Part shown: positions 18,759-56,773 of the stretch, piece by piece
Numbering within the stretch: the stretch's first letter is position 1
Layout of the letters: every line of letters starts with the position of its first letter
The notes under the pieces: model-generated
What the model was told of the DNA's origin: nothing
Databases searched by the model: none
What the model saw: the letters and a program-made list of their open reading frames with translations, nothing else
Source: Bacillus tuaregi
GTDB taxonomy: Bacteria > Bacillota > Bacilli > Bacillales > Cytobacillaceae
Length of the DNA: 64,000 nucleotides
Reading direction: 5' to 3'
Assembly: GCF_900104575.1 (NCBI RefSeq)
Contig: NZ_LT629731.1
Location: 4,164,712-4,228,711 of the forward strand
Made by a program: the position numbers and the translations under genes

Positions 18759-19066
18759 TCTTTGTGAAGCATTATACAATTTTTATAAAAAAGTTTGATC
18801 GCTTTCTATCTATAATCTTCAACAATTGCACCTTATTTTGGAGTAGAAAAATAGTATACCGTAGTGAAGATTGGAAGATTCGACATACTGATTGGAGTTT
18901 TTATGATGAAATTTTTGTCATCTCTTTATTTGCATTTTTTTTATTTCTTTATTATGTCTTAAAGCATCGGATGGAGCCTATATTATTTGGTTCTGTTATT
19001 ATTGTGATTACTGCCAGCGTTTTTTACCACCTAAGCCTCCTTTTGTACCAGCATTTGATACTGTAA
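18740..19066 (+). pseudogene. Possible membrane-protein fragment
   Basis: The end of this frame looks like real protein ('SEDWKIRHTDWSFYDEIFVISLFAFFLFLYYVLKHR' with two hydrophobic stretches), but its start overlaps the terminator hairpin and there is no ribosome binding site. It converges on, and slightly overlaps, the comQ fragment. I read it as the 3' remnant of a small two-helix membrane protein; the family is not identified. Confidence 0.25.
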
Positions 19067-19252
19067 AATAGTAAGTTCCGCAAAGGAGAAACCTTTTCTT
19101 TGATCATCAATATATTTTTGAATTGTGTCTTTTAAATTTTCTTGCTGTATATCTTTCCTTACGAGAATATCCAACGACTTAAGTATTCTACTAGTAATTT
19201 CGGACAATAGAACATCCTCCAAAGGTAGAAAAATATTGGTTGCTAATAACAA
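19031..19252 (-). pseudogene. comQ fragment (N-terminal part only)
   Basis: The 73-codon frame matches the N-terminus of ComQ at 28641-29552: 'DIQQENLKDTIQKYIDDQRK' and 'FAELTILQYQML' against 'EIQQENLKETIQKYINAQTK' and 'FAKLTILHYQML'. Likeness stops right after QML, before either Asp-rich catalytic motif, so it cannot be an active prenyltransferase. It suggests a second, now deleted, comQXPA-like cassette or a partial duplication at the other end of this block. Confidence 0.75.
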
Positions 19253-19273: not shown

Positions 19274-19864
19274 TTACAAGCTCTTTTTTATTTTGTTCAA
19301 AAAAATAGATTTTTTCTCAGGGTATAAAGATAATACAAGCTCAAATTCTCTACGGGTTACATTAGCCCAATCCTGTTTAGTAAACTGTTTTTCTATTAAT
19401 GTGAACGGGAGTTGTAGTTTGATTTCCTCTCCTGCATTTAATTCAGGGGTCATTGTTTTATTAGTGTTAAGGGCCATAAATAAATCTAAATTAACACCAT
19501 TTGAAAATCCCTTAGATTCGAGGATAAAAGGATAGACCTCTAGTATCATTTTTTTATTACTTGTATTCTTAATATTAATAGTTGTTACTATAGATTTTAT
19601 ATCCTTAATCTCATTGGTAAATAATTTTCCGTAAACAGCGCTAAAGTTTTGAAGTTCTGTTTTATCCATCATTTTATGTTCAAGCATGGTAATTTCAAAT
19701 GAACCATATCTTACGGGTTCATTTATCTGGTATGCTTCAATTGTTGGTGGTGGAAATTTGTTGTTTAGGCTATTAAACCTGGCCATAAATAGTATAGATA
19801 AAATTAATAATAAAGAAGCAATTGAAATACCTACTAATTTTTTTCTATTTAGAATCATATGCAA
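19274..19864 (-). CDS. Membrane-anchored extracellular protein, 196 aa
   Basis: One N-terminal membrane segment ('LVGISIASLLLILSILFMARF') followed by a beta-rich extracellular domain ('VRYGSFEITMLEHKMMDKTEL', 'VTTINIKNTSNKKMILEVYPF') of the DUF4352/telomeric-repeat-like immunoglobulin type. It overlaps the ATPase gene by ten bases and is the last intact gene of the operon. A protein of similar build (23029-23700) lies at the front of the same operon. Both may be accessory or immunity proteins of the transporter; that is inference. Confidence 0.6.
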   Translation of the reverse strand: MHMILNRKKLVGISIASLLLILSILFMARFNSLNNKFPPPTIEAYQINEPVRYGSFEITMLEHKMMDKTELQNFSAVYGKLFTNEIKDIKSIVTTINIKNTSNKKMILEVYPFILESKGFSNGVNLDLFMALNTNKTMTPELNAGEEIKLQLPFTLIEKQFTKQDWANVTRREFELVLSLYPEKKSIFLNKIKKSL

Positions 19865-20532
19865 TCGTCCTTAGTCTTTCTTGGTATTTTATTTAGAATT
19901 TGATGGTCGATAATACGTCCATTCTCAATAATGAATATTTCATCAGACAAAAATTCTAACTCCTCTTTATCATGACAAGAAACGATTATTAATGCTCCCT
20001 CTTTTCGTCTTCTCTGCAAAATATCACGTACCTTATTTGTGCTTTGTTCATCCAAAGCATTAATAGGTTCATCTAATATTATGAGCTCTGGATTTTCCAT
20101 AATGGCAGCTGCTATTCCTAGTTTTTGTCTCATTCCCAAGGAATACTTTTTATATTTCTTTTTATCACCCGGATCTAAACCTACTTCGAGAAGAACATCA
20201 TTAATTGTATTATTATCTATCTCTCCTTTTATATCAGCTAATATTTTTAAATTTTTGAATCCGGTATAACTTCCGATAAATCCAGGATTCTCAATTAATG
20301 CACCTACACTTTTAGGAAATGAAATATCCTTCCCTAAAATATCACCATTTATATTAATTCTTCCTTCACTAGGGACAATCAGTCCACAAATTGCACGCAT
20401 TAGCATAGTTTTTCCAGAACCATTTTTCCCTTTTAATCCGTAGATTTTCCCCTTTTCCATACTAAGACTGATATTATCTAAAACAGTTGTTTTAGATATT
20501 TTTTTAGTTAGTCCTTTTAACTCTATATACAT
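19855..20532 (-). CDS. ABC transporter ATP-binding protein
   Basis: 225 aa with Walker A 'GLKGKNGSGKTMLMRAI', Q-loop region, signature 'YSLGMRQKLGIA', Walker B 'PELIILDEPINALDE' and switch His ('VSCHDKEEL'). It is the BcrA/CcmA-like type that usually works with separate permeases in bacteriocin or antibiotic export and self-protection. Three permease genes precede it in the operon. Confidence 0.9.
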   Translation of the reverse strand: MYIELKGLTKKISKTTVLDNISLSMEKGKIYGLKGKNGSGKTMLMRAICGLIVPSEGRININGDILGKDISFPKSVGALIENPGFIGSYTGFKNLKILADIKGEIDNNTINDVLLEVGLDPGDKKKYKKYSLGMRQKLGIAAAIMENPELIILDEPINALDEQSTNKVRDILQRRRKEGALIIVSCHDKEELEFLSDEIFIIENGRIIDHQILNKIPRKTKDDCI

Positions 20533-20556: not shown

Positions 20557-21423
20557 TTAATCTTTATATAGAATATCTAAATTCCTAAATCTTACGAACC
20601 CAATCAAAATTGAAAATATAGAAAGAGAAATAGATAGCAATATGCCTATTGTTGCATAAACTCCTTCACCAAGAGATATCATGTTATTACGAAGAATCAT
20701 TAAATAATTTCCTATTAACAATGGAAAAGAACTATATGCTGACGCGACCAATAGGGTAATAACGATAATACAACTAAATATAGGTCTGCAAAATAAAGTA
20801 AGCGTCATTTGAAATAATGAAATTGCAATAGATGTGATAATGGGTAGAATAAAACCAATTATTAATAGACTTTCTGGTTGAAAGTTTGCAGTATTAACCC
20901 TTGAAACTAATAGATTAATATCTTCATTTCTTTGGAATGCTATATCTCCCGAAAGTAATGTAAATAAAAAGACAACTATATATCCTATTAAATAAAAGGT
21001 AAGTACCGTACTAATATTCCATATGCATTTACTTAACCACCATTGTTTACGATTTTTTGAGTGAAGTATTATTAGTTGACCATAACCATTTAGATCTTGA
21101 AAAGGATAATAACTAACTAAATAAACAATATAGATATTTATCAATAACCACGTTACAGGGATTTCAAAGGGTCTGTTCTCTTGATAAATCTCCATTCCTT
21201 TAAATATTTGAATAATGTAATCTGAATAAGATGGAATACTACTTGTTATTTCGTGTGATGCACCTCTATCAACCATGTTTTGAAAGTAAACACATGAAAA
21301 AATAAATATTAGAAATACAGGTACATATCTTAACTTTTCATGTAGAATTCCAATTAAAAGATCATGCTTTATTTGTGTATAAAAACTACCTCTCCTTTTA
21401 CACATAGAGCTACCCCACTTCAT
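20557..21423 (-). CDS. ABC transporter permease 3 of the peptide operon
   Basis: 288 aa, about six membrane helices ('VPVFLIFIFSCVYFQ', 'TVLTFYLIGYIVVFLFTLL', 'GVYATIGILLSISLSIFSILIGF') and a large extracellular loop after the first helix ('GASHEITSSIPSYSDYI'). The start overlaps the previous permease stop by 14 bases; a later ATG (MCKRRGSF) is also possible. It has the form of the membrane proteins that accompany single ATPases in bacteriocin-type transporters. Confidence 0.65.
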   Translation of the reverse strand: MKWGSSMCKRRGSFYTQIKHDLLIGILHEKLRYVPVFLIFIFSCVYFQNMVDRGASHEITSSIPSYSDYIIQIFKGMEIYQENRPFEIPVTWLLINIYIVYLVSYYPFQDLNGYGQLIILHSKNRKQWWLSKCIWNISTVLTFYLIGYIVVFLFTLLSGDIAFQRNEDINLLVSRVNTANFQPESLLIIGFILPIITSIAISLFQMTLTLFCRPIFSCIIVITLLVASAYSSFPLLIGNYLMILRNNMISLGEGVYATIGILLSISLSIFSILIGFVRFRNLDILYKD

Positions 21424-22204
21424 TTAAGAAGTCCTTCCTTTTTACTGCCACTATACCTATTATAAAAATAACTAGCCCGACGAAAATACCATACATTATA
21501 GATATATTCATATAACCGGAACGTTCCCAAATCGAATGACTTATTGTAAGTTTTCCATACATAACAGCATATGTTCGTTGGAACATATCCCATATTCCAA
21601 TTGATAAAATCACCAACCAACCAAATAAATATCCGTTTGTAATCCATTGAAGAAGTTGAAATAACATATTCAATATAGTCAATAAAAGAATACAAAATAT
21701 TAAAAACATAACTAGTACATTCAGAATTGAAACATTATCAGTTACTTTATTATTCGCAAGGTAATATATGCTACTGATACTATTCCAATTAATATAACTA
21801 GTAGAAAAAAAACCACCAATGATAAAAGTACAAATTGTAAAGTATGTTGTTACTAATGATGAAAAGATAAATGTTCTGAACATATGTTTCGTCCATAATA
21901 TCTTTCTACTTTTTTGTCTTAGAATAAACAAAATATTAAAATCGTTTTTATTTAGATACTGTAATAAATAAACTGACATTGGTACGATTAAGAGAGCAAA
22001 GAAAAATTTATCTGTAACGAATACAAAACAATCTGCTAAGCTAGCACCTACTCCATATGGCAGAATTGTATTTGTAATTCTCCACATTAAATATAGGAAG
22101 ATGAGAACAGGGAAAAGAAATATAAATACCAACAGAATGGTCACATTATCCCGAAAATTATACAATAGCTCTTTTATCCACTGACCAAAATTAATATGTA
22201 TCAT
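21410..22204 (-). CDS. ABC transporter permease 2 of the peptide operon
   Basis: 264 aa with about six membrane helices; an internal pattern 'FNILFILRQKSRKILWTKHMFRTFIFSSL' looks like the coupling region used by this kind of permease. It overlaps its neighbours on both sides by 14 bases, so the three permeases are translated as a set. Confidence 0.65.
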   Translation of the reverse strand: MIHINFGQWIKELLYNFRDNVTILLVFIFLFPVLIFLYLMWRITNTILPYGVGASLADCFVFVTDKFFFALLIVPMSVYLLQYLNKNDFNILFILRQKSRKILWTKHMFRTFIFSSLVTTYFTICTFIIGGFFSTSYINWNSISSIYYLANNKVTDNVSILNVLVMFLIFCILLLTILNMLFQLLQWITNGYLFGWLVILSIGIWDMFQRTYAVMYGKLTISHSIWERSGYMNISIMYGIFVGLVIFIIGIVAVKRKDFLNEVG

Positions 22205-23015
22205 CTTTTATCCCCTTTAGTATAAATACCAATGAAGTAGTAAGTCCTAATATTACAGCCTCAATTATAATAATGGTAAAACTGCTATATCCAAAACTTG
22301 GTTGAAGAAAATTAATTGGTTCATAAGCTATCGCATCAAACAGGTTAAATACTGAAAAAGTAAAAATATAAACTAAAAGCGGTGAAATCAATACTATAAA
22401 GCGATGCTCAACAAAGTGACCAACAACAACTGCGATTGTTGCTATTAAACCTCCAAAGACGAAATCGATAAACATATAACAAATAACATAACCAAAAGGA
22501 TGATTATAATATAATTCACTCCACATACTAGCAGCATTTACATAATCAAAAGAGGCCGATGCTTGAGGTAGCATAGACGGGAGTAGCAAGGCTGAAATAC
22601 AAAAATTAATTAAAAGTGGAATGATAACTGCGGTGCCCCCCGCAATAAAAGTAGCTACAAACTTAGAAAGATAATAGTTAATTTTCTTTGTTCTAATAAA
22701 CACATTTTTTATAAATCCATTTTTACGATCAAGGAAAAATGAGTCAGCAAATGGGATTGTTGAAATAATAGGAATCAGAAGGTAATAAAGATAACCTTGC
22801 ATATTATATTGATTCCCACCCATCCATGAAGCGAAGAGCCAACCAGGATACATCATTGGTTTATTAAAGGATAAATATTCATCGAGGGTACTGGATAAAG
22901 GTATTACGTACTGAAACAAATGGGAGATTGTAATAACTGAACCTATTAAGATGGAAAAAAACAAATATTTATTATTGAAAGCTCGCGAAAATTCAATTCT
23001 TAACATTTTAAACAC
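22191..23015 (-). CDS. ABC transporter permease 1 of the peptide operon
   Basis: 274 aa, about six membrane helices, with 'FFLDRKNGFIKNVFIRTKKINYYLSKFVATFIAG', the coupling-helix pattern seen in ABC-2 type permeases, at about residues 93-126. The long first extracellular loop contains 'YPGWLFASWMGGNQYNMQG'. It begins the run of three overlapping permease genes. Confidence 0.65.
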   Translation of the reverse strand: MFKMLRIEFSRAFNNKYLFFSILIGSVITISHLFQYVIPLSSTLDEYLSFNKPMMYPGWLFASWMGGNQYNMQGYLYYLLIPIISTIPFADSFFLDRKNGFIKNVFIRTKKINYYLSKFVATFIAGGTAVIIPLLINFCISALLLPSMLPQASASFDYVNAASMWSELYYNHPFGYVICYMFIDFVFGGLIATIAVVVGHFVEHRFIVLISPLLVYIFTFSVFNLFDAIAYEPINFLQPSFGYSSFTIIIIEAVILGLTTSLVFILKGIKDDTY

Positions 23016-23028
23016 TTTTATTACCCCG

Positions 23029-23700
23029 CTAGTACTTGATTTTTATTATTCTAACGTTCTTATCTACTAATATTTCGTTTGTATATCCATTGTTAATAAC
23101 AAAATTAAGTTGTTCTTTATATTTGTCTAAAATTGCATCCTTTTTAATAAACCCTAAATTAAAGGTTACTTTTTCATTTGGTTGTAAAATGTAATGAAAG
23201 TAATCCCTTTTCTCTACATCAGCTCGTTTATCAAACAGCATCGGTTCAAAGAGTTCTGCACGTCCACCTTCCATGTTACCTCCAACAATGTAATATGAAT
23301 TCAGTGAAATTTCCTTTACTTGTTCTAAGTTGTTTTGAATAGATAAATTAACAATTAAATAAGAATATTCATTTAAGATAGTACCTTTGTTATCTAAGTC
23401 TAAAATATCATTATAAAAACTTGTAAGAGGAAGTAGACCTTTGTCCTTTGTCCTAGTTATACTATTTATTTTATAGGTCATCCCATCTGTAGAAATTTCA
23501 TTATTCATATCTAAGGGTTTATTTTTTATGCTGCTACTTTCCTTCTTTACTTGTTCATTTGATTCACCCGTGACATTGGATTTGCTCCAAATATTATTAA
23601 TCGGTAGAGAATCATTATTCCTTGTAAAGCTATAAACAATAATGGCAATCATAAAAATACCAATTATACTCACTATAATTTTCGTGCCCTTTTTATCCAT
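23029..23700 (-). CDS. Membrane-anchored extracellular protein, 223 aa
   Basis: One N-terminal membrane segment ('KIIVSIIGIFMIAIIVYSF') and an extracellular beta-rich domain ('MTYKINSITRTKDKGLLPLTSF', 'EYSYLIVNLSIQNNLEQVKE'). In build it resembles the protein at 19274-19864, so the two frame the transporter genes. GGAGG precedes the ATG and a terminator separates it from the peptide gene upstream. No enzyme motif is seen. Confidence 0.6.
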   Translation of the reverse strand: MDKKGTKIIVSIIGIFMIAIIVYSFTRNNDSLPINNIWSKSNVTGESNEQVKKESSSIKNKPLDMNNEISTDGMTYKINSITRTKDKGLLPLTSFYNDILDLDNKGTILNEYSYLIVNLSIQNNLEQVKEISLNSYYIVGGNMEGGRAELFEPMLFDKRADVEKRDYFHYILQPNEKVTFNLGFIKKDAILDKYKEQLNFVINNGYTNEILVDKNVRIIKIKY

Positions 23701-24215: not shown

Positions 24216-24383
24216 GATTATTCCCCCTAATATTTATCTTCATTTGTTATACGGAATACATATCAATGATTTATTTCTAAAATGATTTTTTTAAACATTC
24301 CCTTCTTATTAAATAAGCGCTTATTCAAATATTTGAAATTTACAATACAAATATTATTCTAGCATTTAATGTAAAAAAAAGAA

Positions 24384-24423
24384 CCGCAATAATATTTGCG
24401 GTTTTCCGTATGTTATGTTGCGG
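24384..24423 (-). promoter_or_regulatory. ComA-like operator array upstream of the peptide gene
   Basis: In plus-strand reading: CCGCAA, 7 bp, TGCGG, 4 bp, CCGTA, 6 bp, GTTGCGG. The centre TTGCGGTTTTCCGTAT resembles the known ComA box (TTGCGG-N4-CCGCAA). The same elements with the same spacings occur at 29622-29661 before comQ. The outer parts can also pair (AACCGCAA / TTGCGGTT). Confidence 0.7.
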
Positions 24424-25391
24424 AATCCTATTAAAAATTCGATATATCATAAAAATTTGTTACTCGTTTAACTATAATAACCACTTTTAAATCTATAAGA
24501 AAAGAACTGCATCAGCAAGTTCTCTTTTACAGCCTATAAAGTTTCCTTTTATATTAAATATCATTCAGTTATATCCACATGGCAAACCAATATGAAGCAG
24601 GAATAAATGCCCTAATAAAGAGCGCTAATCCTGTTTGATGTAAGTTGGCAATAGGTAAGCATTTGATGTTATCTTATCTCCAGCTTTTGTCGGGTAGTTC
24701 AGGAGCTGTACCACTCCCTTCCCCCTAAGAACAGTACGTTTAGGGCAACATAATTACTTTAACAGAGCGACACATGCCAACTTAGCGTTCTCACGCCTTG
24801 CCTATGATATTGGTGCAATGATGTACAACATCATAATAATTAATCCAGCCTCTAATTTCTTATCTAAGTTCTCGGATAAGGCCAATGCTCGGCGTTATTG
24901 ACTAAAAGCTGATAACAAAAATGGTAGAATAGGTGTGAACTACTGTGATGAGTTATATCGGCTGGAAAGACAATTTAAGCATTTGACTCCGAGTAAGCGT
25001 AGAAAAAACGCAATAGTACTCGAAGCCAATCGTGAAGAAATCCAAAAAACACCTGTTAACCATGAAAGCAAAAATGAGAAACGCATGGCCTGGAGTGGAG
25101 AAAGGTAATGAATGGTATTGGAAGTGATGCTGTTTTTAATCCTACAACAACAGAAGTATTTGTATTTGCAAGTGTTCCAGGAACCTTTCCTATTCCCCAT
25201 TCCGTTGTAAACTGAATACTCGGAAGATTGATAATAATCGTAAGGAACATCAAAAAGATAAAATAAACAGCTGTAGTAATGAAAAGGAAATTTACCAAAA
25301 TCCTTTTTTTAAGGCTGCTATTTTCTGAATAGGAATTTTTTTAAAAAAAGGCAAATTAAAAAGAGCTGATAAATAGAATCAGCTCCTAAAT
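24424..25391. other. Gene-poor region with decayed mobile-element sequence
   Basis: No intact gene is seen over nearly 1 kb. On the plus strand about 24941-25108 encodes a peptide ('YCDELYRLERQFKHLTPSK') that resembles the C-terminal part of IS66-type transposases, without the rest of the gene. On the minus strand about 25110-25298 encodes the start of a membrane protein ('VNFLFITTAVYFIFLMFLTIIINL'), cut off where the first sequence begins. The 24640-24780 part has short inverted repeats and may be the end of an insertion sequence. Family names here are tentative. Confidence 0.35.
25363..25385 (-). terminator. Terminator of the comQXPA cassette
   Basis: GAGCTGAT / ATCAGCTC stem with a 7-nt loop followed on the minus strand by TTTTTAATTTG, directly after the comA stop. 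Confidence 0.8.
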
Positions 25392-26066
25392 TTATTCATG
25401 ATTCACTGAATTTTTGGATAGTAATCCGAATTCTCTCGCCTTTATTAGTGCTTCAGTTCTTGAACCAACCCCTAGTTTAGAAAAAATTTTGGTTAAATTG
25501 TATTCAACAGTACGTTGGCTCATAGATAGTTCAATAGCAATCGCCTTATTTGTTAATCCTTTTGAAACCCTATCTAATATTTCCTGTTCTTTACTAGAGA
25601 GTATAATATCCCCTAGATTTCGTTGTTCTTCATAAGTTAATGGTCTAGTATCCACTCTTCTTAATTGTTTTAATAATTGAAGTGGAATAACAGCTTCTTC
25701 TCTCAAAGAACACTTGATAGCTGTAATTAATTGTTCCTTGGTAGCCGTTTTGCTTATAAATCCTGATACACCTGCTTCTATTAATAAATTATAATGAGAA
25801 ATCAAATCAAATCCTGTATAGATCAGGATTACCGCTTCAGGATCATATTGTAAGATAACTTTTGTTAATTCAATGCCATTTATCCTTGGCATATACAGAT
25901 CAATTAGATACACTTCATATTTCCCATTTTTTAGTACCCCTGTAATTTTATCACTTTCTGTTAACACATCAGCGGTCATATCATATTCAGATTCAATAAT
26001 AGCCCTAGTACCTTCTCCAACAGCAGGGTGATCGTCCACTATTAATATATTAATCAATCCCATCAT
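25392..26066 (-). CDS. comA: ComA-like response regulator (NarL/LuxR family)
   Basis: 224 aa. The receiver domain has 'VDDHPAV', the phosphorylated Asp in 'YLIDLYMPRINGIE' and Lys in 'SGFISKTATKEQL'; the LuxR-type helix-turn-helix is at about 152-215 ('LSSKEQEILDRVSKGLTNKAIAIELSMSQRTVEYNLTKIFSKL'). Its start overlaps the ComP gene by 17 bases, as in the known comP-comA pair. Expected role: once phosphorylated by ComP it binds TTGCGG-N4-CCGCAA-like boxes, two of which lie in this block. Confidence 0.85.
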   Translation of the reverse strand: MMGLINILIVDDHPAVGEGTRAIIESEYDMTADVLTESDKITGVLKNGKYEVYLIDLYMPRINGIELTKVILQYDPEAVILIYTGFDLISHYNLLIEAGVSGFISKTATKEQLITAIKCSLREEAVIPLQLLKQLRRVDTRPLTYEEQRNLGDIILSSKEQEILDRVSKGLTNKAIAIELSMSQRTVEYNLTKIFSKLGVGSRTEALIKAREFGLLSKNSVNHE

Positions 26067-28416
26067 TGCCTCCTGTCTTCAATTCTAATTCTATAATTAC
26101 CTTAAAACCGCTATTGGGATTAGACTCAATCTTAATCTTACCACCTATACATGTTACTCGTTCTTTAATACCCGAAATCCCCATTGTTTTAAAAGAATCG
26201 TTTAGTTTGCTCATGTCTATGCCAACCCCGTTATCCCAATAAGTAAGTATTAAAGCATGCTTTCTTTTCCTTAATGATATGCTAACCTCAGAGGCTTCCG
26301 AATGCTTCATTGCGTTATTTAAAAGTTCCTGTATCACACGATATAAAGCTAATTCATATTCCGGATCTAATTGCTGAATGGATTGATCCAATTCTGTATA
26401 CAAAATAAAATTGGAGCGTAGTTTAACCTGGTCAATTAAATTTTGAATCGATTGAATAATTCCCAACTCGCTAAGAAAGGGAGGCCTTAATTCGTTACAC
26501 GTTTCCCTTACTAAATGGATATTATCAAGAAGTCTTTCTTTTATCATCAATAAATCATCTTTTAAGAAGGGATCTGTCATTTTATTTTTTATTGATTCAA
26601 TTTCTCTTAATAGCTGTAATTGATCCTGTAGGACTGTATCATGGAGATCAATTGATAAATTAGTTCGTTCTTTTTCTGACAAGGAAAATAACAGCCTTGA
26701 TAACCACGAGGGATAACTTTCCTTTGCCTCTTGTCCTTTTTCTTTATATTTTTCAATTCTTTGGAACAAACCCTCAATTAGCTGATAATTTTCAAGGAGA
26801 ATACTAGAAAAGTAGGCTATCGTTTCTAACCAAATTTTCTCTTGAATATTTAATTTCGTTTTATACTCTTTCAAACCACAAAAAATTATATCTTTTCGAT
26901 GATAGTCATCTCCAACAACGACGCAAAATCCATCTTGAAATTCAATGAGAATTCCGGCATTGAGGTTTTCCCAATTTATTTTTTCAATTTCATTAACAAG
27001 GTTGGAAGAAAAATCATCCTTGTTGTTCAATGTCCATATGCTCCCATCTTTACTCGCCTGGATTTCAACATATTGAACTTCTTTTACCTTTAATACTTCT
27101 TTTACTTCTTTCATAAGGCTCTCTATAAAGCTACTTACTTTTGTTTCCCTCCTAGTCCTTTGAAAGAATTTATAAAGGCTAGAATTAGTTTCCAAATTAT
27201 ACTTTTGTGAAAATAAATGGTGTCTAATTTTATAATCCAAATATTCCTTGATGTATAAGAATAATATAGATCCCGTAAATAATAAGGTAAAGGTAAGAAA
27301 AAAAGAACTGGAAATTAACCTTATTTTGAGAAACATAGCTATAAGTGTTGTAAAAAGTAAGGTAAAAGGGAAAGCCAATAGGGTAAAATAACGTAGCCTG
27401 CCAAGTAAGAATTCAATATCAAATAGCTTTGCTGCCAATAGTAAATAAACAAAAGCCAACGGTATGACTAGTAAAAATACAGCTGCTATTTCAGCAGAAA
27501 GTATTCCCTTCCCCCAAAAAATGTAAGGTACAGCATACAAAACCACAAAAGGACTAAATGCAGTAACTAATGTGACCCAAAGGATTTTTAAAACATTCTT
27601 TCCTTCAGAATGTTTATATCGATAATAGAATCTTACTAAGAAAAAAAACAACGAGCTTAATAATAAAAAGAAAAAACCTAATTCAACATTCTTCATTAAA
27701 GAGGAAAGGTTATGGAAGAAAAAGCTGCTCAATAATGTTGTAATTAAAAGAAGGTAAATAATATACAGAGTTTTCATACTGCTATCTTTAATAAACCCAA
27801 GATCAAATCTTGAAAAGTAGCTTTTTAAAAAATGAATAAGTAAAACAATAGAACCCGAAAAAGTAATAGTAGTAGTGATTCTACCAACTAAGTCTGCTCT
27901 CGCTGATGCTGAAGCACTTAAATAACACAGACCTAGTGATAATAAGAAAAAAATTAATATTAATGCTGATTTTTCCTCTTTTTTCTTATAATATAGAACT
28001 AAGCTTAAAAAGAAAGTAGAGAGGGCAAATAAAAAGGGCAGAAGCAAATGAACTAAAAGCTGAAAATCCAAATCATTATACGAAATAGCAAATGTATTAA
28101 TTTGGGACTCATTGTTAGAGATTGTAACAGACTCCGCCATCTCTACCATCCCAAACAGAACAACCGTATTATGCTTACCGGGATCAATGCCATTTATAAG
28201 ATTAACGATACTCCCTGTTTCTATGTTATTTTTGTAAGCCCAACCCTTGTCATAAACCTTTTCCACTATCCAAACGTCATTAACCTTCTCAACTTCAATT
28301 CCCACCAAAGGATATTTCAGGATTAGTAAAGTAAAATGCATGATCAGCCCCATTGTTATTAAGGCTAGCAGCGAAAAGGTTATAGTAGATTTCAAAAAAC
28401 GCTTCATTTCAATCAC
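26050..28416 (-). CDS. comP: ComP-like membrane sensor histidine kinase
   Basis: 788 aa. After a first membrane helix comes a PDZ-like extracellular part ('VGIEVEKVNDVWIVEKVYDKGWAYKNNIETG'), then about seven more helices, a cytoplasmic linker, the HisKA_3 box with the phosphorylated His ('NLSIDLHDTVLQDQLQLLREIE', near residue 590) and an HATPase domain ('YRVIQELLNNAMKHSEAS', 'DNGVGIDMS', 'MGISGIKERV'). This is the ComP layout: a polytopic receiver for the ComX pheromone. It lies between comX and comA in the canonical order. Confidence 0.88.
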   Translation of the reverse strand: MIEMKRFLKSTITFSLLALITMGLIMHFTLLILKYPLVGIEVEKVNDVWIVEKVYDKGWAYKNNIETGSIVNLINGIDPGKHNTVVLFGMVEMAESVTISNNESQINTFAISYNDLDFQLLVHLLLPFLFALSTFFLSLVLYYKKKEEKSALILIFFLLSLGLCYLSASASARADLVGRITTTITFSGSIVLLIHFLKSYFSRFDLGFIKDSSMKTLYIIYLLLITTLLSSFFFHNLSSLMKNVELGFFFLLLSSLFFFLVRFYYRYKHSEGKNVLKILWVTLVTAFSPFVVLYAVPYIFWGKGILSAEIAAVFLLVIPLAFVYLLLAAKLFDIEFLLGRLRYFTLLAFPFTLLFTTLIAMFLKIRLISSSFFLTFTLLFTGSILFLYIKEYLDYKIRHHLFSQKYNLETNSSLYKFFQRTRRETKVSSFIESLMKEVKEVLKVKEVQYVEIQASKDGSIWTLNNKDDFSSNLVNEIEKINWENLNAGILIEFQDGFCVVVGDDYHRKDIIFCGLKEYKTKLNIQEKIWLETIAYFSSILLENYQLIEGLFQRIEKYKEKGQEAKESYPSWLSRLLFSLSEKERTNLSIDLHDTVLQDQLQLLREIESIKNKMTDPFLKDDLLMIKERLLDNIHLVRETCNELRPPFLSELGIIQSIQNLIDQVKLRSNFILYTELDQSIQQLDPEYELALYRVIQELLNNAMKHSEASEVSISLRKRKHALILTYWDNGVGIDMSKLNDSFKTMGISGIKERVTCIGGKIKIESNPNSGFKVIIELELKTGGNDGID

Positions 28417-28424
28417 CTTAAAAG

Positions 28425-28450
28425 AAGCCGGAATGTGATTCCCCCGGCTT
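28425..28450 (-). terminator. Hairpin between comX and comP (possible leaky terminator)
   Basis: AAGCCGG / CCGGCTT with a 12-nt loop, followed on the minus strand by CTTTTAAGG. It sits just after the comX stop and before the comP ribosome binding site, so it could keep comX mRNA above comP-comA mRNA. Confidence 0.6.
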
Positions 28451-28456
28451 TAGAGA

Positions 28457-28618
28457 TTATTTCCAATATTCTACTTTTGGAACTATGCTACCCTCAACAA
28501 AAACTTCTAATATGGCTCTTAATTCCTCTGCATTAACTCCAATCAAACTTACGGTTCCTTCTTTCAACTTTTCTAAAATTTCTGCATTGCTTAATAGATA
28601 TTGTACCACCTCTTGCAC
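28457..28618 (-). CDS. comX: ComX pre-pheromone, 53 aa
   Basis: A GTG start, a few bases behind TAGGGGG, opens a 53-codon frame beginning MQEVVQYLLSNAEILEKLKE, then 'SLIGVNAEELRAI', and ending 'IVPKVEYWK'. The start MQ(E/D).VQYLL..(P/A)E.L.KLK and 'SLIG' are those of ComX precursors, and the Trp three residues from the C-terminal region is the residue that ComQ prenylates in this family. It lies between comQ and comP, exactly where comX belongs. The frame is short and easily missed. The mature pheromone would be the C-terminal few residues including Trp52. Confidence 0.9.
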   Translation of the reverse strand: MQEVVQYLLSNAEILEKLKEGTVSLIGVNAEELRAILEVFVEGSIVPKVEYWK

Positions 28619-28640
28619 TGTAAATCCCCCTATTTATAGT

Positions 28641-29552
28641 TTAATGTATATAGTCTAAAAGTTGTCCAATAAACTTCTTATCAACGTTCAGCTTTTGAAG
28701 TTCAGTTTTTACTTTATTTTGGTAAACTCTCTTGATAATTTCCGTATAAACTAATACACCACTATCCACTATCATCTTACTAATAAATTTTTGATTTTTT
28801 ACCATTTCATCCTTTTCAATAGCTCCATTATAATAACTGCTGATAATTTCAGCTCCATTCCCTTGATAACCCAATAGATAAATAACCGGAAGTGAAAGTT
28901 TCTTGTTCAACAAATCGTTTTTTCCTTCCCAATTCTGTAAGTCGTAGATGTCATTGTTTAGTTGCCCTATTAATCCTATAAATTGCGAATACCGATTTAT
29001 AATTTCTAAGTATTGGTCACTAGCTAAATTAGCTCCAACCAAACATGCAAGTGAAACTAAAGAACCTGATTTTTTGAGAGCCATTTCAATATATTCCTTC
29101 TCGGTCCGGCATTTACTTAAAAGATCAATCTGCTGGCCACTTATGGAAAGCAACGAATATTCAAGCAGAATTGAAATTGCCCTCTCTTTATACTTTAAAT
29201 CTGTTTTTCTTATTACATCAATACATATAAATATCATTGCAGTTGAAGCATTTAATGCAAAGCTTTGTTCATTCATCCATAGCTTTTGATTGTCATCATC
29301 ATCTTCTATATCATCAAGTATATCGAAAGACAAAATTAGAAGCTCGATTGCTGCAGCAACAGATATGACTTTGTCCAACTCTGTTCCATCCAGCATTTGA
29401 TAATGTAAGATGGTAAGCTTAGCAAAGGGAAAACCTTTTTTTGTTTGAGCATTAATATATTTTTGAATTGTTTCTTTTAAATTTTCCTGTTGTATTTCCT
29501 TCCCCAGAATGGTATTTATTTCCCCTATTATTCTATTAGTAACATCCGTCAA
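28641..29552 (-). CDS. comQ: ComQ isoprenyl transferase
   Basis: 303 aa of the polyprenyl synthetase fold. The first Asp-rich motif is in 'SFDILDDIEDDDDNQKLW' (DDxxD) near residue 75-85 and the second is 'GQLNNDIYDLQNWEGKNDLL' (NDxxD) near 200. ComQ attaches a prenyl group to the Trp of ComX and helps release it. It is the first gene of the cassette, downstream of a ComA-like array. Its N-terminus recurs as the remnant at 19031-19252. Confidence 0.9.
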   Translation of the reverse strand: MTDVTNRIIGEINTILGKEIQQENLKETIQKYINAQTKKGFPFAKLTILHYQMLDGTELDKVISVAAAIELLILSFDILDDIEDDDDNQKLWMNEQSFALNASTAMIFICIDVIRKTDLKYKERAISILLEYSLLSISGQQIDLLSKCRTEKEYIEMALKKSGSLVSLACLVGANLASDQYLEIINRYSQFIGLIGQLNNDIYDLQNWEGKNDLLNKKLSLPVIYLLGYQGNGAEIISSYYNGAIEKDEMVKNQKFISKMIVDSGVLVYTEIIKRVYQNKVKTELQKLNVDKKFIGQLLDYIH

Positions 29553-29621
29553 TCAGACTTCCTCCATATGGTTTTGATAGTTACTATTATTATATTTTAA
29601 CTTACTTAAATCTATATTTCA

Positions 29622-29661
29622 CCGCAAATAGAGATGCGGTTATCCGTAAGAATAGTTGCGG
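29622..29661 (-). promoter_or_regulatory. ComA-like operator array upstream of comQ
   Basis: CCGCAA, 7 bp, TGCGG, 4 bp, CCGTA, 6 bp, GTTGCGG in plus-strand reading. The centre ATGCGGTTATCCGTAA matches the ComA box (TTGCGG-N4-CCGCAA) at all but two of its defined bases. All spacings equal those of the array at 24384-24423. It lies 70-110 bp before the comQ start. Confidence 0.75.
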
Positions 29662-29713: not shown

Positions 29714-31246
29714 TTAAAGTAACTTTTTTAATAACATTTCAGCTCGATGTTTCACGCCTTTTAAACTATGCTTCGATTTGATTGTTTTAACCCCCTGCCT
29801 TTTAATACTATTTAGAGATTGGCTTGTCCAAGTACCACAATCGTTTACAAGATTTTCGAGTAGGCGAATAAAAATAAAATCCCAATCCTTCACTTCAGCA
29901 GACGACAAAATAAGAGTAGATAAGGACTTACCTTCACGTTCTATCTCAACAATGTAAAAACTTATGCCCTGCATCATATATACTTTTGCAATCACATATC
30001 GTCTTCTAGTAACTCTATCACTTAATCTAGTAAATTTACGTTCCCCTAAACCTTCTGGCAATACATCCATGATGACACGAATAGCATTTATCTGCGGATA
30101 ATTCTCTAAAACCTTTAACACATTGATAAAGTCCTGTAATTCACCCTGCGCTTGAATTTCATGAAGCATTTTATGCTCCAGCCCTCGTGCTAACTGTTGG
30201 CCACCTATATCTGCTGTAGAACGGATGGCATCATCATTACCATAGTATTTTTTTGTGTTTTCATCTTCTCTTGTTCGCTGCTTAGCAGTTTTACCTTTTT
30301 CTCGAATGATTTTAGGTACTCTTATGTATTCATGTTGTTGCTGGTTCATTTGTACAAGTTCAAAATCCTCAGTGGAACCATCCATCTTCTCATCAAGTGT
30401 AAATCCTTCCGTATCACCTTTTTTGCTTACATTACGGTATGTATATTTTTTTGCCTCATCTGTCTTTTCCATCTCCTGTATTTCAGGATGTGAGATTGAA
30501 ATATGTTCAATTGGAATATGTTTATTTTTTACCTTTGCAATTTGTAATACGGTCCAAAAACCCTTATTTTCCTTTATACAAGCAGTTATTGTGATTGGCT
30601 GCGAGAAGTTCCAATCAAACTTAAAAGTTCCTTCTTGAAGCCATGTAAATGCAAGGCTCTCAAAGGTCTGTCGTATGTCACCGTTAGTTAATAACCACAC
30701 TAATTGATGGATGAATCCAGGGCTCGTGTACTTTAGTTTGTATTGTGCTGTAAAGCTAAGGTGAATTTGACTCTGCCCATATGTTTCTATAAAATATTGT
30801 GGAAATGAATTGGACTCAAACAATCGATATAATAGAAAACCATTTGGCGCTAAGATGCTGCGAATGACTTCGACTAATGGTAAAATTATTCTCCTTCCTT
30901 CAAAAAAGAAGTTAAAACTTCGAGAAGTTCCCAGATCAGTGTTGCCTTGAATTTTCCAAGGTTTATCGAAATATTTAACACTATTTGGTTCTATCGTAAT
31001 ATCCATTTCACTTATTCCTTCAGGTGGCTTACTAGTTGAAATAACACCGTTCCTATAGAAATGCTGAATAGCCAAACTGGGCAAGGTACCCCAGTCCAAC
31101 AGTATTTTCTTAGTAACCCCACTTGCGCGAAAATATGCATTAATCATCATCTTATTTTCAAACCGGAAAGGATCACCTATCCAAATCAATTGTGCTTCTT
31201 CATCCTGTTTGAAAGGCCAAGGAATTTTAACCTGTTGTTTACCCAT
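29714..31246 (-). CDS. tnsE: TnsE-like targeting protein of Tn7-like module I
   Basis: 510 aa. The C-terminal part ('FINVLKVLENYPQINAIRVIMDVLPEGLGERKFTRLSD', 'RRYVIAKVYMMQGISFYIVEIEREGKSLSTLIL') matches the TnsE C-terminal domain, which binds the sliding clamp and DNA to send Tn7 into replicating plasmids. The length is close to E. coli TnsE (538 aa). The start overlaps the tniQ stop by eight bases, so it is the last gene of the tnsABCDE order. Module II has no such gene. Confidence 0.75.
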   Translation of the reverse strand: MGKQQVKIPWPFKQDEEAQLIWIGDPFRFENKMMINAYFRASGVTKKILLDWGTLPSLAIQHFYRNGVISTSKPPEGISEMDITIEPNSVKYFDKPWKIQGNTDLGTSRSFNFFFEGRRIILPLVEVIRSILAPNGFLLYRLFESNSFPQYFIETYGQSQIHLSFTAQYKLKYTSPGFIHQLVWLLTNGDIRQTFESLAFTWLQEGTFKFDWNFSQPITITACIKENKGFWTVLQIAKVKNKHIPIEHISISHPEIQEMEKTDEAKKYTYRNVSKKGDTEGFTLDEKMDGSTEDFELVQMNQQQHEYIRVPKIIREKGKTAKQRTREDENTKKYYGNDDAIRSTADIGGQQLARGLEHKMLHEIQAQGELQDFINVLKVLENYPQINAIRVIMDVLPEGLGERKFTRLSDRVTRRRYVIAKVYMMQGISFYIVEIEREGKSLSTLILSSAEVKDWDFIFIRLLENLVNDCGTWTSQSLNSIKRQGVKTIKSKHSLKGVKHRAEMLLKKLL

Positions 31247-33095
31247 ATGCCTTCACCTCCTGTTTCACTCGTATATATGCCTCTAAATGCGGTTTTATTT
31301 CATGGAAATGATGCGATTTCACTGCACCAATACGTTGTACTTTCCACAATGCAATTGGTTCTTGCTTCTGCAGCATAGTGTCAATAATCTTACAGCAACG
31401 GCGAATTTGAAATTGCCTGGCGGATTCTGTGATGTCTTTTAAGAGCCTTTTAGTGCGAGGTAGTTTATCAAGATGCTTTTCTAAATGAGGTAATATTCCT
31501 AAAAGCTTCCCTATCAGTGAAGTCGTAATTCGAATGGGTTTCTCTAATCCCATTAACTCCTTATACAGCTGATTTATTTTTGCAAAATATCCTTCATCCC
31601 TGTCAGACCAATCCACTGTTACATTGCGGTTTGATTGTTTACGCTTCACAGGCAAGTGTTGAAAAAGCCATTCTTTATCATGGCGATACAAATACGTATA
31701 TTGTTTTGAAAAGCACGAACGAATTTGTGTTCTTGAATAGCCGGGGGATTGTTGTATTCCTTCAAGTAATTGTTTTCGATATTGCTCTATCATTGGAAAC
31801 TGTGCATGTTCTCCAACTTGTTCCTTTTGTTCATATTCAGATAAATACTTTTTTACGGTTTTAGAATCAACTCCTAGCATGTTCGCTAAGGATCTTGTGC
31901 TTTGATTCCCTTCGCTTGCCAAGGAATGTAATTTAGTTACCCAGATGTCTCCAAACGCTTTGATTCGACCAATACGGTATTTATCCTCATTGGATTTATC
32001 CGGACCTTTTCTAGAATAAATAAAGCCACATGAACACTCGAACGTACCGATAGGAGAGGCAGATTTAAAATCTCTAGTAATTATTACTTTAGGAATTACA
32101 AATTGACGATAGTGATCAGCAGCTTTGTTCAAGCATGGCCAAGGACCTTTCCCGAAAGGACCTGCATCTTCACCCAATAGCAAAAACCCCTCAACATCTT
32201 GGTCCAAAAAACAGAGGAATAGCAGGTGGCGAAATGGATGTACGTGACGTTTTATATTACGGGTCAAAACTCTCAACCAATTATATTCATCATCCTTGTT
32301 CAACCCAGAATTATACTTTTCTAGAAACCCATCTGGAAACTTGGCTTGAACTGCATCAAATAACTCTTTTTGTCTTACTCGGTTGGAGACAGTAATCAAA
32401 TTTCTTTCTCTTAGAAGTAATCTATACCTTTTTACAATCATTTCACGTGAGAATGCTGCTATATTAAGATTTAATAGCTGATACGCCATCGTTGCCAATT
32501 TTACTTGAATGTTAAAATAATCAGGAGGCTCCATTCCTTGTAAAATAGAAAAATCCATTCTTTTTGCATCAAAGCGAATAAATTCAATTCGACTGCATGT
32601 TGTAAAATCAACTGGATATTTCTTCAACTGCAAAAAATGGCGTGAACACAAGTCAACTCCTTGAAGCTGATGCTCCCGATGGATATACGGTTCACCATAT
32701 TTTTCAATATCTAACAAGGAACATTGTGGACAATAATACAGCCCTTCTTTTCTACAAATACTCCCTGCAACCATACCCAACCTTGCATAAAGCCCTTTTC
32801 CATCATCTTGAACATCTCGTAAGATATCCTGTTGTCGTTGTTTAGAAAGGAAAGGAGCATAAAATGGATAAACTGTATGATTTGCTAACAGTTTATCAAC
32901 TGAATAATGATTCCCCATTTGTTGAACCAAAGCATGAAAATGGCTGCCAATCTCTATACTTGGTATTACAGAACGGCTTTGGAAAACTTCCTCCAACGTA
33001 TCCTTATAATCGATATTTCCACTATAGAAGTGATACCGGGCAATCGCTGAATAGATCAACTCATCTGGATATGGCTCAGTAAAGAATGGCAGCAT
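31239..33095 (-). CDS. tnsD: TniQ/TnsD-family target selector of module I
   Basis: 618 aa. The N-terminal TniQ domain opens 'FTEPYPDELIYSAIARYHFYSGN', with a zinc-binding Cys set in 'YYCPQCSLLDIEKYGEPYIHREHQLQGVDLCSRH'; a second Cys pair lies in 'GTFECSCGFIYSRKGP', then a DNA-binding C-terminal part with 'STRSLANMLGVDSKTVKKYL'. TnsD proteins recognise a fixed chromosomal site and recruit TnsC. It is clearly paralogous to the gene at 50270-52144. Confidence 0.88.
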   Translation of the reverse strand: MLPFFTEPYPDELIYSAIARYHFYSGNIDYKDTLEEVFQSRSVIPSIEIGSHFHALVQQMGNHYSVDKLLANHTVYPFYAPFLSKQRQQDILRDVQDDGKGLYARLGMVAGSICRKEGLYYCPQCSLLDIEKYGEPYIHREHQLQGVDLCSRHFLQLKKYPVDFTTCSRIEFIRFDAKRMDFSILQGMEPPDYFNIQVKLATMAYQLLNLNIAAFSREMIVKRYRLLLRERNLITVSNRVRQKELFDAVQAKFPDGFLEKYNSGLNKDDEYNWLRVLTRNIKRHVHPFRHLLFLCFLDQDVEGFLLLGEDAGPFGKGPWPCLNKAADHYRQFVIPKVIITRDFKSASPIGTFECSCGFIYSRKGPDKSNEDKYRIGRIKAFGDIWVTKLHSLASEGNQSTRSLANMLGVDSKTVKKYLSEYEQKEQVGEHAQFPMIEQYRKQLLEGIQQSPGYSRTQIRSCFSKQYTYLYRHDKEWLFQHLPVKRKQSNRNVTVDWSDRDEGYFAKINQLYKELMGLEKPIRITTSLIGKLLGILPHLEKHLDKLPRTKRLLKDITESARQFQIRRCCKIIDTMLQKQEPIALWKVQRIGAVKSHHFHEIKPHLEAYIRVKQEVKAYG

Positions 33096-33107
33096 ATGAT
33101 TCCCTCC

Positions 33108-34775
33108 CTAGTAGAATTCCTCCAAAGGATTTTTAATGTATCCATTTGCTTTTATTAATTCATAGGGGTGTTGCTTTTTGTCTAACGCTTGCTTTCTTAG
33201 CTTTAGTAATGGTAGAATCTCTGCTTTTTTTTCTTTTGCCTTTGCTTTTTGATCTTTCTTTTGTTGATTTAATACAATAGCCTGCTGAATCACATCTGAT
33301 TTAAGATGATTAAATTCAGTATCAAGTGGATTTCCCTCAACTATATTTTGTACGAGCTTTTTAATATCGTTTTCTTTCAAACTATCAAAAATACCAAGGG
33401 CTGCCACTTCAACACTTAGGTTCCCAATCATGTCCTGACGTTTATACTCGATTGTATTTTGGCGCTCTTTAAATGCTTCTTGAATACGTCCCGTCATTTC
33501 AGTATTTCGCTTGTGATTTAGCATGACTTCATCCAAGTTAATCATAATATCTTCATATTTCATCATGTCGGCTAAATTGTTCGTCCGAATAGCTGTCATC
33601 ATTGGTTGAATCGTTTGCATATCTTCCCTAGCAGTCTTTTTTAATACTTGTGGTGTAATGATTTCAGCCGGGTTGTCCTCATCAAATAATACTCGTTCTT
33701 GCGCTAGAATAAATAGGTTCACAGCAACAGCAGTAATCCCTTGGCATTCATAATAAAATGCCTTCTTTGTCTCCTCCATAAGCTCAGAATGGGTTTTTAA
33801 ACACTGTAATTCCCAAAGTGTCTCTAGGAAAAACTCCCACTCTTCACTATTTTCGTCCATACGATCCCAAATAATAGCTCCATCACTTGCTGCACGTCTT
33901 GCCTGTCTGAAGTTTCCCTTGAATAGTTTTTGTGCTTTAGAAGTGCCGATTAAAACCGTAGGAATGCCAACTGTATTAGACAGTGTTACAAAAAAGTTCA
34001 ACATTTCTTCCTGTTCATTTTTGGAATGTAGTAAGTGCTGGATTTCATCAATTACTAGAACACCGATGCCGTACATACTTGCTAACGATGTCATGTGTAA
34101 TAACATTGTCGATGTCACACGGTTCAAATAACCGTACTTTTCTAAATATCGAGTGCCTAGTAAATCATCAATTGCTTTGAAAAAGCTTTTGCAAAGTGTA
34201 GATAAACTTCCATCATAGGGGCAGTCAATTTTAAGCCAAACAATTTGAGTTCGATTAAACGGTTGTCCTTTGTATTCTTCATGCTTGATTACTTGTGGAT
34301 ACATAAGCAAAAGACGTTCAATTGCTGTTGTTTTACCAATTCCAGAAATACCGATAATGGATAAGCTATCGGCAGTTGAACGAATATAATTTAGTCGTTC
34401 ATCTATATATCTATGAGCTGTTTCCTCTTCTTCACGCAATTCATGCAACACCCGAACACGCTCTAGAAATGTTCTATCTAATGGATTTCGCGCCAAGTAA
34501 CCTCTCCGAATCAATGTAGACAATCGGCGTTCTACCTCGAAATGAATCGGTAACGGCTGTATAAAATTCTTTACACGTTTTAAGATGTGATAACGAATAT
34601 TCGTTTCACTTAACTTATCTTGCTTGCTAATTCGTGGAGTCACCATAAATCGCTCGAGCACATCATCCTCATTAAATATAGGTGGAAGAGCTTCGATGAA
34701 AGGATTATTGGTATATTCATTTAAAAGTTGCTCCTTATAGACAGCTTTCTCAAATTCCCCTTTTAAGACAATCAT
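33108..34775 (-). CDS. tnsC: TnsC-like AAA+ regulator of module I
   Basis: About 555 aa. Walker A 'IIGISGIGKTTAIERLL' near residue 143 and Walker B 'GVLVIDEIQHLL' near 241, with sensor-like 'TVLIGTSKAQKLF'. TnsC links the target selector with the TnsAB transposase and gives target immunity. I start at MIVLKGEFEKAVYKEQ, because the module II protein begins at the matching place (MRSEFIKAVYHEQ); an ATG nine codons upstream, inside tnsB, is also open. Confidence 0.9.
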   Translation of the reverse strand: MIVLKGEFEKAVYKEQLLNEYTNNPFIEALPPIFNEDDVLERFMVTPRISKQDKLSETNIRYHILKRVKNFIQPLPIHFEVERRLSTLIRRGYLARNPLDRTFLERVRVLHELREEEETAHRYIDERLNYIRSTADSLSIIGISGIGKTTAIERLLLMYPQVIKHEEYKGQPFNRTQIVWLKIDCPYDGSLSTLCKSFFKAIDDLLGTRYLEKYGYLNRVTSTMLLHMTSLASMYGIGVLVIDEIQHLLHSKNEQEEMLNFFVTLSNTVGIPTVLIGTSKAQKLFKGNFRQARRAASDGAIIWDRMDENSEEWEFFLETLWELQCLKTHSELMEETKKAFYYECQGITAVAVNLFILAQERVLFDEDNPAEIITPQVLKKTAREDMQTIQPMMTAIRTNNLADMMKYEDIMINLDEVMLNHKRNTEMTGRIQEAFKERQNTIEYKRQDMIGNLSVEVAALGIFDSLKENDIKKLVQNIVEGNPLDTEFNHLKSDVIQQAIVLNQQKKDQKAKAKEKKAEILPLLKLRKQALDKKQHPYELIKANGYIKNPLEEFY

Positions 34776-34776
34776 G

Positions 34777-56709: not shown

Positions 56710-56773
56710 GTCCCTCAATCCCTTCTTGTGCAATGATTACAGATATACATTTACCTTTTTTAGTCCACAAAAA

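Follow-up and report, generated by a model that had tools for sequence, protein, structure and literature searches.

Why should an operon for a small secreted-type protein carry the same 40-bp operator-like array as the quorum-sensing cassette beside it? The question is raised by a 64,000-nucleotide stretch of the Bacillus tuaregi genome (the window; contig NZ_LT629731.1, positions 4,164,712 to 4,228,711 of the forward strand), in which an intact comQXPA cassette lies between two such arrays, one upstream of comQ and the other upstream of an operon for a DUF2712 protein and an ATP-binding cassette (ABC) transporter. The ComQXPA system of B. subtilis is a model quorum sensor of Gram-positive bacteria. 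A sequence-only reading of the window had claimed that the same spaced array, with different filler bases, precedes both transcription units and so ties the peptide/ABC operon to the cassette. Exact matches bear out the first claim, and the sequence evidence described here supports the second. With a probability of roughly 0.86 we take both sites to be ComA-dependent operator-promoters, which would serve as feedback at comQ and as a density-dependent switch of the DUF2712-ABC operon. Positions below are those of the window; other genomes and loci carry our own G and L labels.

The two arrays agree in their half-sites and differ in their spacers

The pattern that had been read in the window matches exactly at 24384-24423 and 29622-29661. 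It was absent from 100 dinucleotide shuffles of the window, and the rest of the genome (4.86 Mb, 16 contigs) held no exact match; two additional places appeared at three mismatches, and the reversed pattern had no match. The array is better written as four 6-bp half-sites in alternating orientation, CCGCAA-N6-TTGCGG-N4-CCGCAA-N6-TTGCGG, and each window copy scores 22/24 against this idealised form. The TTGCGG inverted repeat with its 4-bp spacer is present as the central pair of the DUF2712 array (10/12) and the comQ array too matches the pattern that contains it, while the proximal half-site is exact in both. The genes downstream of both arrays are on the minus strand; the distance to the start codon is 70 bp for comQ (29552) and 169 bp for DUF2712 (24215).

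The two copies are identical at 22/24 half-site positions and at only 7/16 spacer positions, and their flanks agree at 19/60 positions per side (12/20 in the nearest right flank). Because the half-sites are conserved while spacers and flanks have diverged, the sequences indicate that the arrays are not a simple or fresh duplication, and the pattern is what selection on a spaced binding site would leave.

The hexamer and its arrangement have a counterpart in measured ComA sites. In B. subtilis, according to Wolf et al. (PMC4797271), ComA operators consist of an inverted repeat, RE1-N4-RE2, and a downstream RE3/RE4 element beside the -35; the window arrays share with these the hexamer, the N4 inverted repeat and a further half-site near the -35. 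The earlier proposal that the core matches the ComA box therefore stands, the half-site being a known ComA element and the N4 inverted repeat a known ComA site. ComA sites at comQ outside B. subtilis were not seen in the titles and abstract beginnings that we searched, which leave subscription papers mostly uncovered, and we do not claim that none is in print.

The array recurs in comQXPA loci and follows ComA divergence

At up to three mismatches, the idealised array was found in 3 of 193 genomes of the family (B. tuaregi itself, G015 and G066), with no control match; comQ was found in 10 of the 193. A scan of 14 sequences (250,696 bases in all, from the window, from comQ regions and from stretches related to them) showed the array before comQ in several and after comA in others, where five rounds of shuffling produced one match at 17/24 and none higher. 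We then used the best 80 of 166 relatives from a comQ-alignment scan (1.56 Mb). These loci are not independent, since several come from sister species, L062 and L069 are one genome, and 7 of the 80 are apparently genomes of the 14-sequence scan. The array reached at least 17/24 at 59 places and at least 19/24 at 24, compared to 12 and 0 in three shuffle rounds. Siminovitchia thermophila (L035) and Sporosarcina limicola (L042) each have a perfect array (24/24) before comQ.

The spacing itself appears to be preferred. When four half-site orders and symmetric gaps were compared at 19/24 or better, the two best alternatives gave 10 and 9 matches (the latter N5-N4-N5) against 24 for N6-N4-N6, and nine of the 10 lie upstream of comQ, so that these are probably the same arrays in a shifted register. 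Pairs of half-sites in the two orientations of the array were likewise enriched, with 90 at N6 over a base of 34 and 63 at N4 over 35. No same-orientation pair with a 5-bp spacer, the RE3-N5-RE4 direct repeat, was flagged in the 80 loci, and the half-sites of the window alternate.

Where the array sits varies with the ComA of the locus. We scored three slots (upstream of comQ, the comQ-comX gap and after comA) at a threshold of 17/24 and grouped the loci by the identity of their ComA to that of the window; the scores come from a simple consensus, and variant sites such as the ACGCAA/TTTCGG of Paenibacillus score low. With ComA at least 58% identical (14 loci), the array stood upstream of comQ in 9, after comA in 6 and in either place in 12. 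With ComA 42-57% identical (38 loci, including Paenibacillus and Desulfosporosinus), it lay in the comQ-comX gap in 20. Below 42%, a group that includes relatives of B. subtilis, B. licheniformis, B. pumilus and Metabacillus, none of 22 loci had it in any slot, and three of the six loci without a ComA match in place carry one. Shuffled slots held the array in 0/400 of each kind. The recognition-helix region of 24 aligned ComA proteins reads SKR in the five sampled from the group below 42% and SQR in the other 19; this residue was ruled out as the sole cause of array presence, since SQR also occurs in the array-less L048, L049 and L053.

Two variants of the arrangement were seen. Several Paenibacillus loci (L065, L069, L073, L079 and others, at ~10.9-11.0 kb) have ACGCAA-N6-TTTCGG-N4-TACGAA-N6-TTGCGT in the comQ-comX gap. 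In G066, six consecutive half-sites with a 22-bp period stand before a truncated comQ (L032:370-431) and before comQ (L028:7190-7251).

A -10 hexamer is favoured at 22 nt from the array

Each window array is followed at 22 nt by a predicted -10 hexamer (Table 1). That of comQ was also recovered by a consensus promoter scan, which paired it with GTGAAA as first hexamer; such matches were no more numerous in this region than in shuffles. We tested this distance on all 37 arrays of at least 18/24 in the window and the 80 loci, taking the better of the two orientations and repeating a test on 35 hand-picked arrays; three of the 37 are register-shifted partners of others. A hexamer matching the -10 at 4/6 or better lies at offset 22 in 28/37 arrays (mean 7.4 and maximum 18 at other offsets), and one matching at 5/6 or better in 17/37 (mean 1.5, maximum 6). 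Among the 26 arrays of at least 19/24, the counts were 18 and 11. On one side the array is followed by TGA in 13/37 and by TG in 21/37.

The same distance is found in the loci with a distant ComA. In 19 of these 22, a ComA-type site lies ~450-550 bp upstream of comQ, with TTTCGG-TGA placed 22 nt from a 4-5/6 hexamer; of the rest, one has a variant site and two have none by the same search. This is probably the promoter of degQ, a known ComA target. Proximal half-site and hexamer are thus 22 nt apart in both, whereas the half-site is 6 bp from the inverted repeat in the window and 16-18 bp, about one helical turn further, in the B. subtilis relatives. A mirror half-site 6 bp out on the far side moreover makes the window operator symmetric, unlike those of B. 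subtilis. From its sequence, the window array looks like a compact symmetric variant of the ComA operator-promoter, in which the inverted repeat is closer by one helical turn and a mirror half-site is present in addition. Recurrence with diverged fillers in other comQXPA loci and the preferred 22-nt distance together support the earlier suggestion that the spacing is under selection.

A palindromic array could also act as RNA. If the half-sites formed rho-independent terminators or other hairpins, no protein need bind them, and both sites do fold better than shuffles (z ~ -3.6). At the DUF2712 site the proximal half (24382-24403) offers an 8-pair stem followed by CTTTTTTTT and was scored as terminator-like, which counts against a purely operator role. 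However, good folding is expected of any set of palindromic half-sites, the comQ array has no T run, and many arrays continue with TGA or TG on one side. Hairpins would also leave unexplained the preference for a -10 at 22 nt and the absence of the array from the slots of distant-ComA loci, and comA already has a terminator-like stem of its own (25361-25387). We therefore consider this explanation very unlikely for the pair, though it is possible that the 24.4-kb site has a double role and also blocks read-through into the DUF2712 operon.

The difference between the two promoters bears on a second alternative, that an old duplication, which could have come about when the cassette moved, left a comQ copy that works and a DUF2712 copy that is a decaying remnant. 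The DUF2712 site lacks the TGA, and a comQ fragment at 19031-19252 shows that pieces of a second cassette were once here. Decay is nonetheless hard to square with half-sites that were kept at 22/24 while spacers fell to 7/16, which points to selection, with a hexamer matching at 5/6 at 22 nt on the DUF2712 side, or with an array after comA in 6/14 near relatives. We regard a remnant as unlikely, if somewhat less so than hairpins, and prefer two operator-promoters.

A third array-like place in the B. tuaregi genome (G000:C16:3836506; L034:8007-8046) scores 22/24; its neighbours, named by eye, are a xylose-isomerase remnant on one side and a HesB-like gene on the other. It has no -10-like hexamer at 22 nt either way and no com gene match in 16 kb, and we do not count it as a ComA target.

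Reach of the composite operator-promoter pattern

We combined the inverted repeat, proximal half-site, TGA and -10 into one composite pattern and allowed up to three mismatches; the DUF2712 site is at this limit, so weaker targets could be missed. In its own genome the pattern occurs at the two window sites only. Taken with the lack of further exact array matches, this argues against the random genome-wide recurrence that the sequence-only reading had named as the outcome opposed to its claim. Among 12 genomes, 8 with comQ and 4 without, there were 10 composite matches in 7 genomes, none of them in those without comQ and none in the control. Across 397 genomes of the order there were 15 matches in 12 genomes, two of these being the window's. 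Sites with one mismatch directly follow comA in G229 and G268, and a further such site in G229 precedes a lipoprotein gene. G213 has two near-identical sites at three mismatches (L196:7546-7601 and 9294-9349), separated by 1.75 kb, and the 17 kb around them contain no com gene match. The remaining eight matches all have three mismatches and may be due to chance.

The G213 sites are relevant to whether a GerE/NarL-type regulator other than ComA binds the arrays. Proteins of the NarL family can share related sites, and G213 shows such sites away from com genes. Against another regulator, array presence tracks ComA divergence, most arrays are in comQXPA loci (which is also where most of the searching was done), and the half-site is an element measured for ComA (PMC4797271). 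Of the three alternatives we think this the least probable, and ComA remains our candidate for both arrays.

Genes that follow the array in other loci

Several arrays, like the one at 24.4 kb, stand before a gene for a small secreted-type protein. In L036 this is a 135-aa signal-like protein; two permease-like genes come next, then an ATPase that shares 41% identity with that of the window and a lipoprotein-like gene. The array there is only 17/24 and is followed by TGAAA, with a 3/6 hexamer at 22 nt after TATGT. Proteins with signal-like N-termini also follow the array in L038 (127 aa, then ABC genes) and in L040/L022 (147 aa; array 17/24), and in L151, at a site ~45 kb from the cassette, a 125-aa signal-like protein precedes a permease-like gene. 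Near the G066 arrays there are two further signal-like genes, one encoding 152 aa and accompanied by ABC genes, the other encoding 187 aa; they read away from comQ or a comQ fragment. A family scan of the 127-, 147-, 152-, 187- and 351-aa products and of a 175-aa product of L041 found nothing above cut-off.

A number of results weigh against reading the arrays as ComA-dependent promoters of such operons. The tested slots hold no array in two of the 14 loci whose ComA is nearest to that of the window (in one of them, L044, an array lies ~430 bp upstream of comQ) and in 18 of the 38 loci with ComA 42-57% identical. The composite pattern is absent from G022, which carries both comQ and an array; in the order, comQ occurs in 64/397 genomes and 62 of these 64 are without a composite match, so that only two of the 12 matching genomes have comQ. 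In the window itself, the DUF2712 array is followed by TTCTTT rather than TGAAA and reaches the composite pattern only at three mismatches, which makes it the weaker promoter of the two. Finally, some arrays precede products that are not small and secreted, with 92 aa (L043), 156 aa (L041) and a 351-aa lipoprotein (L047), and the L035 array precedes an ABC operon with no clear secreted gene.

DUF2712 operons in other genomes

DUF2712 was found in 2/193 genomes of the family and 15/397 of the order, and also in the B. subtilis control genome. From 14 regions we obtained 12 with a called frame, and in 11 of these DUF2712 is accompanied by three permease-like genes, an ATPase and a ~200-aa protein, as in the window; one of the 11 has a shortened first permease. 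The window DUF2712 is 13-27% identical to 11 others, and its ATPase 44-50% identical to the best-matching ATPase in each of 15 other DUF2712 regions. The window operon differs from the others in its additional 223-aa gene after DUF2712 and in being the only one with a full array. None of 15 other DUF2712 loci has it, the scores within ~1.5 kb on each side being at most 12-15 of 24, and 15 larger regions (218,091 bases) contain no array of 17/24 or better. DUF2712 as the carrier of the full array was accordingly rejected. The expectation that the spaced pattern would recur in relatives thus held at comQ homologues and failed at DUF2712 genes: the full array accompanies the comQXPA cassette rather than DUF2712 itself.

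In one genome, G337 (L129:7621-11494), a DUF2712-ABC operon stands back-to-back with a divergent ComQ-like cassette. That cassette lies on the opposite strand, 160 bp from DUF2712, and begins with a 65-aa frame ending in QWL. Next come genes for a prenyl synthetase resembling ComQ (26% identical; PF00348), for a histidine kinase and for a response regulator that carries a GerE (LuxR-type) domain. The 65-aa frame matches none of the ComX models and is a candidate signal precursor by its size, place and Trp. The gap holds an exact CCGCAA-N6-TTGCGG within a longer palindrome, the sole such pair among the 15 DUF2712 regions; on neither side of it is there a -10 at 22 nt. G550, G249 and G339 have cassettes that are arranged in the same way. 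It seems that the common Bacillales DUF2712-ABC operon came to lie beside ComQ-type cassettes at least twice.

In G249 (L202:2223-9410) the divergent cassette is back-to-back with a gene for a 67-aa hydrophobic peptide and ABC genes, a neighbour that may be bacteriocin-like. The Listeria phage records OR848112.1 and OR846763.1, which carry no annotation, encode a relative of DUF2712 that shares 48% identity with the L129 protein; a search of viral_contigs found no relative of DUF2712.

Lactococcin 972-type bacteriocin operons also encode a small secreted protein and then an ABC transporter, and the DUF2712 operon resembles them in how it might work. The DUF2712 protein had no match to this family in Pfam or NCBIfam. 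A single-sequence structure model (mean pLDDT 38.4, pTM 0.28) was too poor for fold comparison and was not used, and our literature search, which mostly did not extend to subscription papers, found no paper on DUF2712.

The cassette, the operon and their neighbours

On the minus strand, tnsA-B-C-D-E (37595 to 29714) are followed by an array and comQ-comX-comP-comA (29552 to 25392). After ~1 kb in which no gene is clear, the second array precedes DUF2712, behind which come genes for a 223-aa protein, three permease-like proteins, an ABC ATPase and a 196-aa protein, and lastly a comQ fragment (Table 1). The four com frames are adjacent and open, with Pfam support, and have the same order and strand as in known ComQXPA systems (census in PMC4008528). 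The best NCBIfam model for the window ATPase is of the lantibiotic-protection type (TIGR03740), at 176.5 bits and below the cut-off of 309.75. By its sequence, the comQ fragment is most simply a remnant of a second, different comQ or cassette at the far end of the DUF2712 operon.

Table 1. Predicted regulatory sites and genes of the comQXPA and DUF2712 region (window positions)
Feature	Position	Strand	Basis and remarks
ComA-type operator (predicted), DUF2712 operon	24384..24423	-	half-sites 24384-24389, 24396-24401, 24406-24411, 24418-24423
ComA-type operator (predicted), comQ	29622..29661	-	half-sites 29622-29627, 29634-29639, 29644-29649, 29656-29661
Predicted -10 hexamer TAGAAT, DUF2712 promoter	24356..24361	-	22 nt from array, 5/6; TGC before
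Predicted -10 hexamer TAAAAT, comQ promoter	29594..29599	-	22 nt from array, 5/6
comQ, isoprenyl transferase for ComX signal	28641..29552	-	PF00348, E 2.9e-20; at most 64% identical to comQ of named genomes
comX, signal pre-peptide, 53 aa, Trp next to last	28457..28618	-	PF05952, E 3e-15
comP, sensor histidine kinase	26050..28416	-	HisKA_3 and HATPase_c
comA, response regulator, proposed binder of both arrays	25392..26066	-	Response_reg and GerE
DUF2712 protein, 145 aa, hydrophobic signal-like N-terminal segment	23778..24215	-	PF10916, E 1.6e-13; hydrophobicity
223-aa protein, hydrophobic N-terminal segment, presumed second operon gene	23029..23700	-	no family match
ABC-2-like permease 1	22191..23015	-	ABC2_membrane_4, E 1.5e-4, under its cut-off
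Hydrophobic membrane protein, permease-like 2	21410..22204	-	position and sequence; no family match
Hydrophobic membrane protein, permease-like 3	20557..21423	-	position and sequence; no family match
ABC transporter ATPase	19855..20532	-	ABC_tran, E 1.4e-28
196-aa protein, hydrophobic N-terminal segment, presumed last operon gene	19274..19864	-	position; no family match
comQ fragment, 73 aa	19031..19252	-	58-60% identical over ~60 aa to window comQ and B. norwichensis comQ

Two sets of Tn7-like transposition genes lie upstream of the cassette, tnsABCDE (29714-37595) and tnsABCD (50270-56733), which are 31-37% identical to each other. The comQXPA genes begin directly after tnsE and the cassette may be Tn7-like cargo; our search for the ends of the tns element beside comQ gave short repeats only and no clear pair. 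In Cytobacillus citreus (L040), comQ adjoins a piece of tnsA. Two plasmid records labelled Stenotrophomonas rhizophila (CP065518.1 and CP031730.1) match comQ in the same way as a Lysinibacillus fusiformis plasmid, with the same residues matched and near-equal identity to that plasmid, and their host label may be wrong. No comQ relative was found in viral_contigs.

A proposed mechanism and its meaning for ComQXPA systems

We propose that phosphorylated ComA, made by the cassette between the two arrays, would bind their four half-sites. By analogy with established work on ComA, a phosphorylated dimer would occupy the central inverted repeat of the TTGCGG-N4-CCGCAA type, and the outer half-sites, 6 bp out on each side, would position further ComA on both flanks. 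Since the proximal half-site abuts a poor -35 and is 22 nt from the -10, RNA polymerase would need ComA at these promoters. Judging from its position, the comQ site would close a positive-feedback loop on the genes for signal and sensor, and the 24.4-kb site would turn on the operon for the secreted DUF2712 protein and the ABC transporter at high cell density. ComA binding, activation and feedback are what we infer from the sequences.

The operon may accordingly supply what had been suggested for it, a density-controlled secreted product with its own exporter or immunity, to judge from the signal-like N-terminus, the operon layout and the relatives. With less confidence, we suggest that neighbouring cells are the target of the DUF2712 product and that the ABC proteins export it or protect its producer, and a bacteriocin-like role would be a guess from the layout.

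The ComQXPA system of B. subtilis is reported to operate without signal feedback (PMC7794433). In the window, in contrast, the cassette's own promoter carries the operator, and an operator upstream of comQ predicts positive feedback on comQXPA. A broader picture, which we think could equally prove right or wrong, has comQXPA outside the B. subtilis/Metabacillus branch as a self-contained cassette that amplifies itself through a compact symmetric ComA promoter, placed at comQ or comX. Often an additional ComA promoter, either behind comA or facing upstream, would drive an operon for a secreted protein and ABC proteins, and this operon would be exchangeable. The feedback-free, competence-wired system of B. 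subtilis, with its inverted repeat farther away by one helical turn, would then be the derived exception.

The arrays predict feedback in many ComQXPA relatives outside the B. subtilis branch. Their geometry, N6-N4-N6 with 22 nt to the -10, provides a searchable rule for candidate ComA-controlled products in uncharted species, and the uncharacterised DUF2712-ABC operon is placed in a first regulatory setting, and this in two lineages whose ComQ-type cassettes differ.

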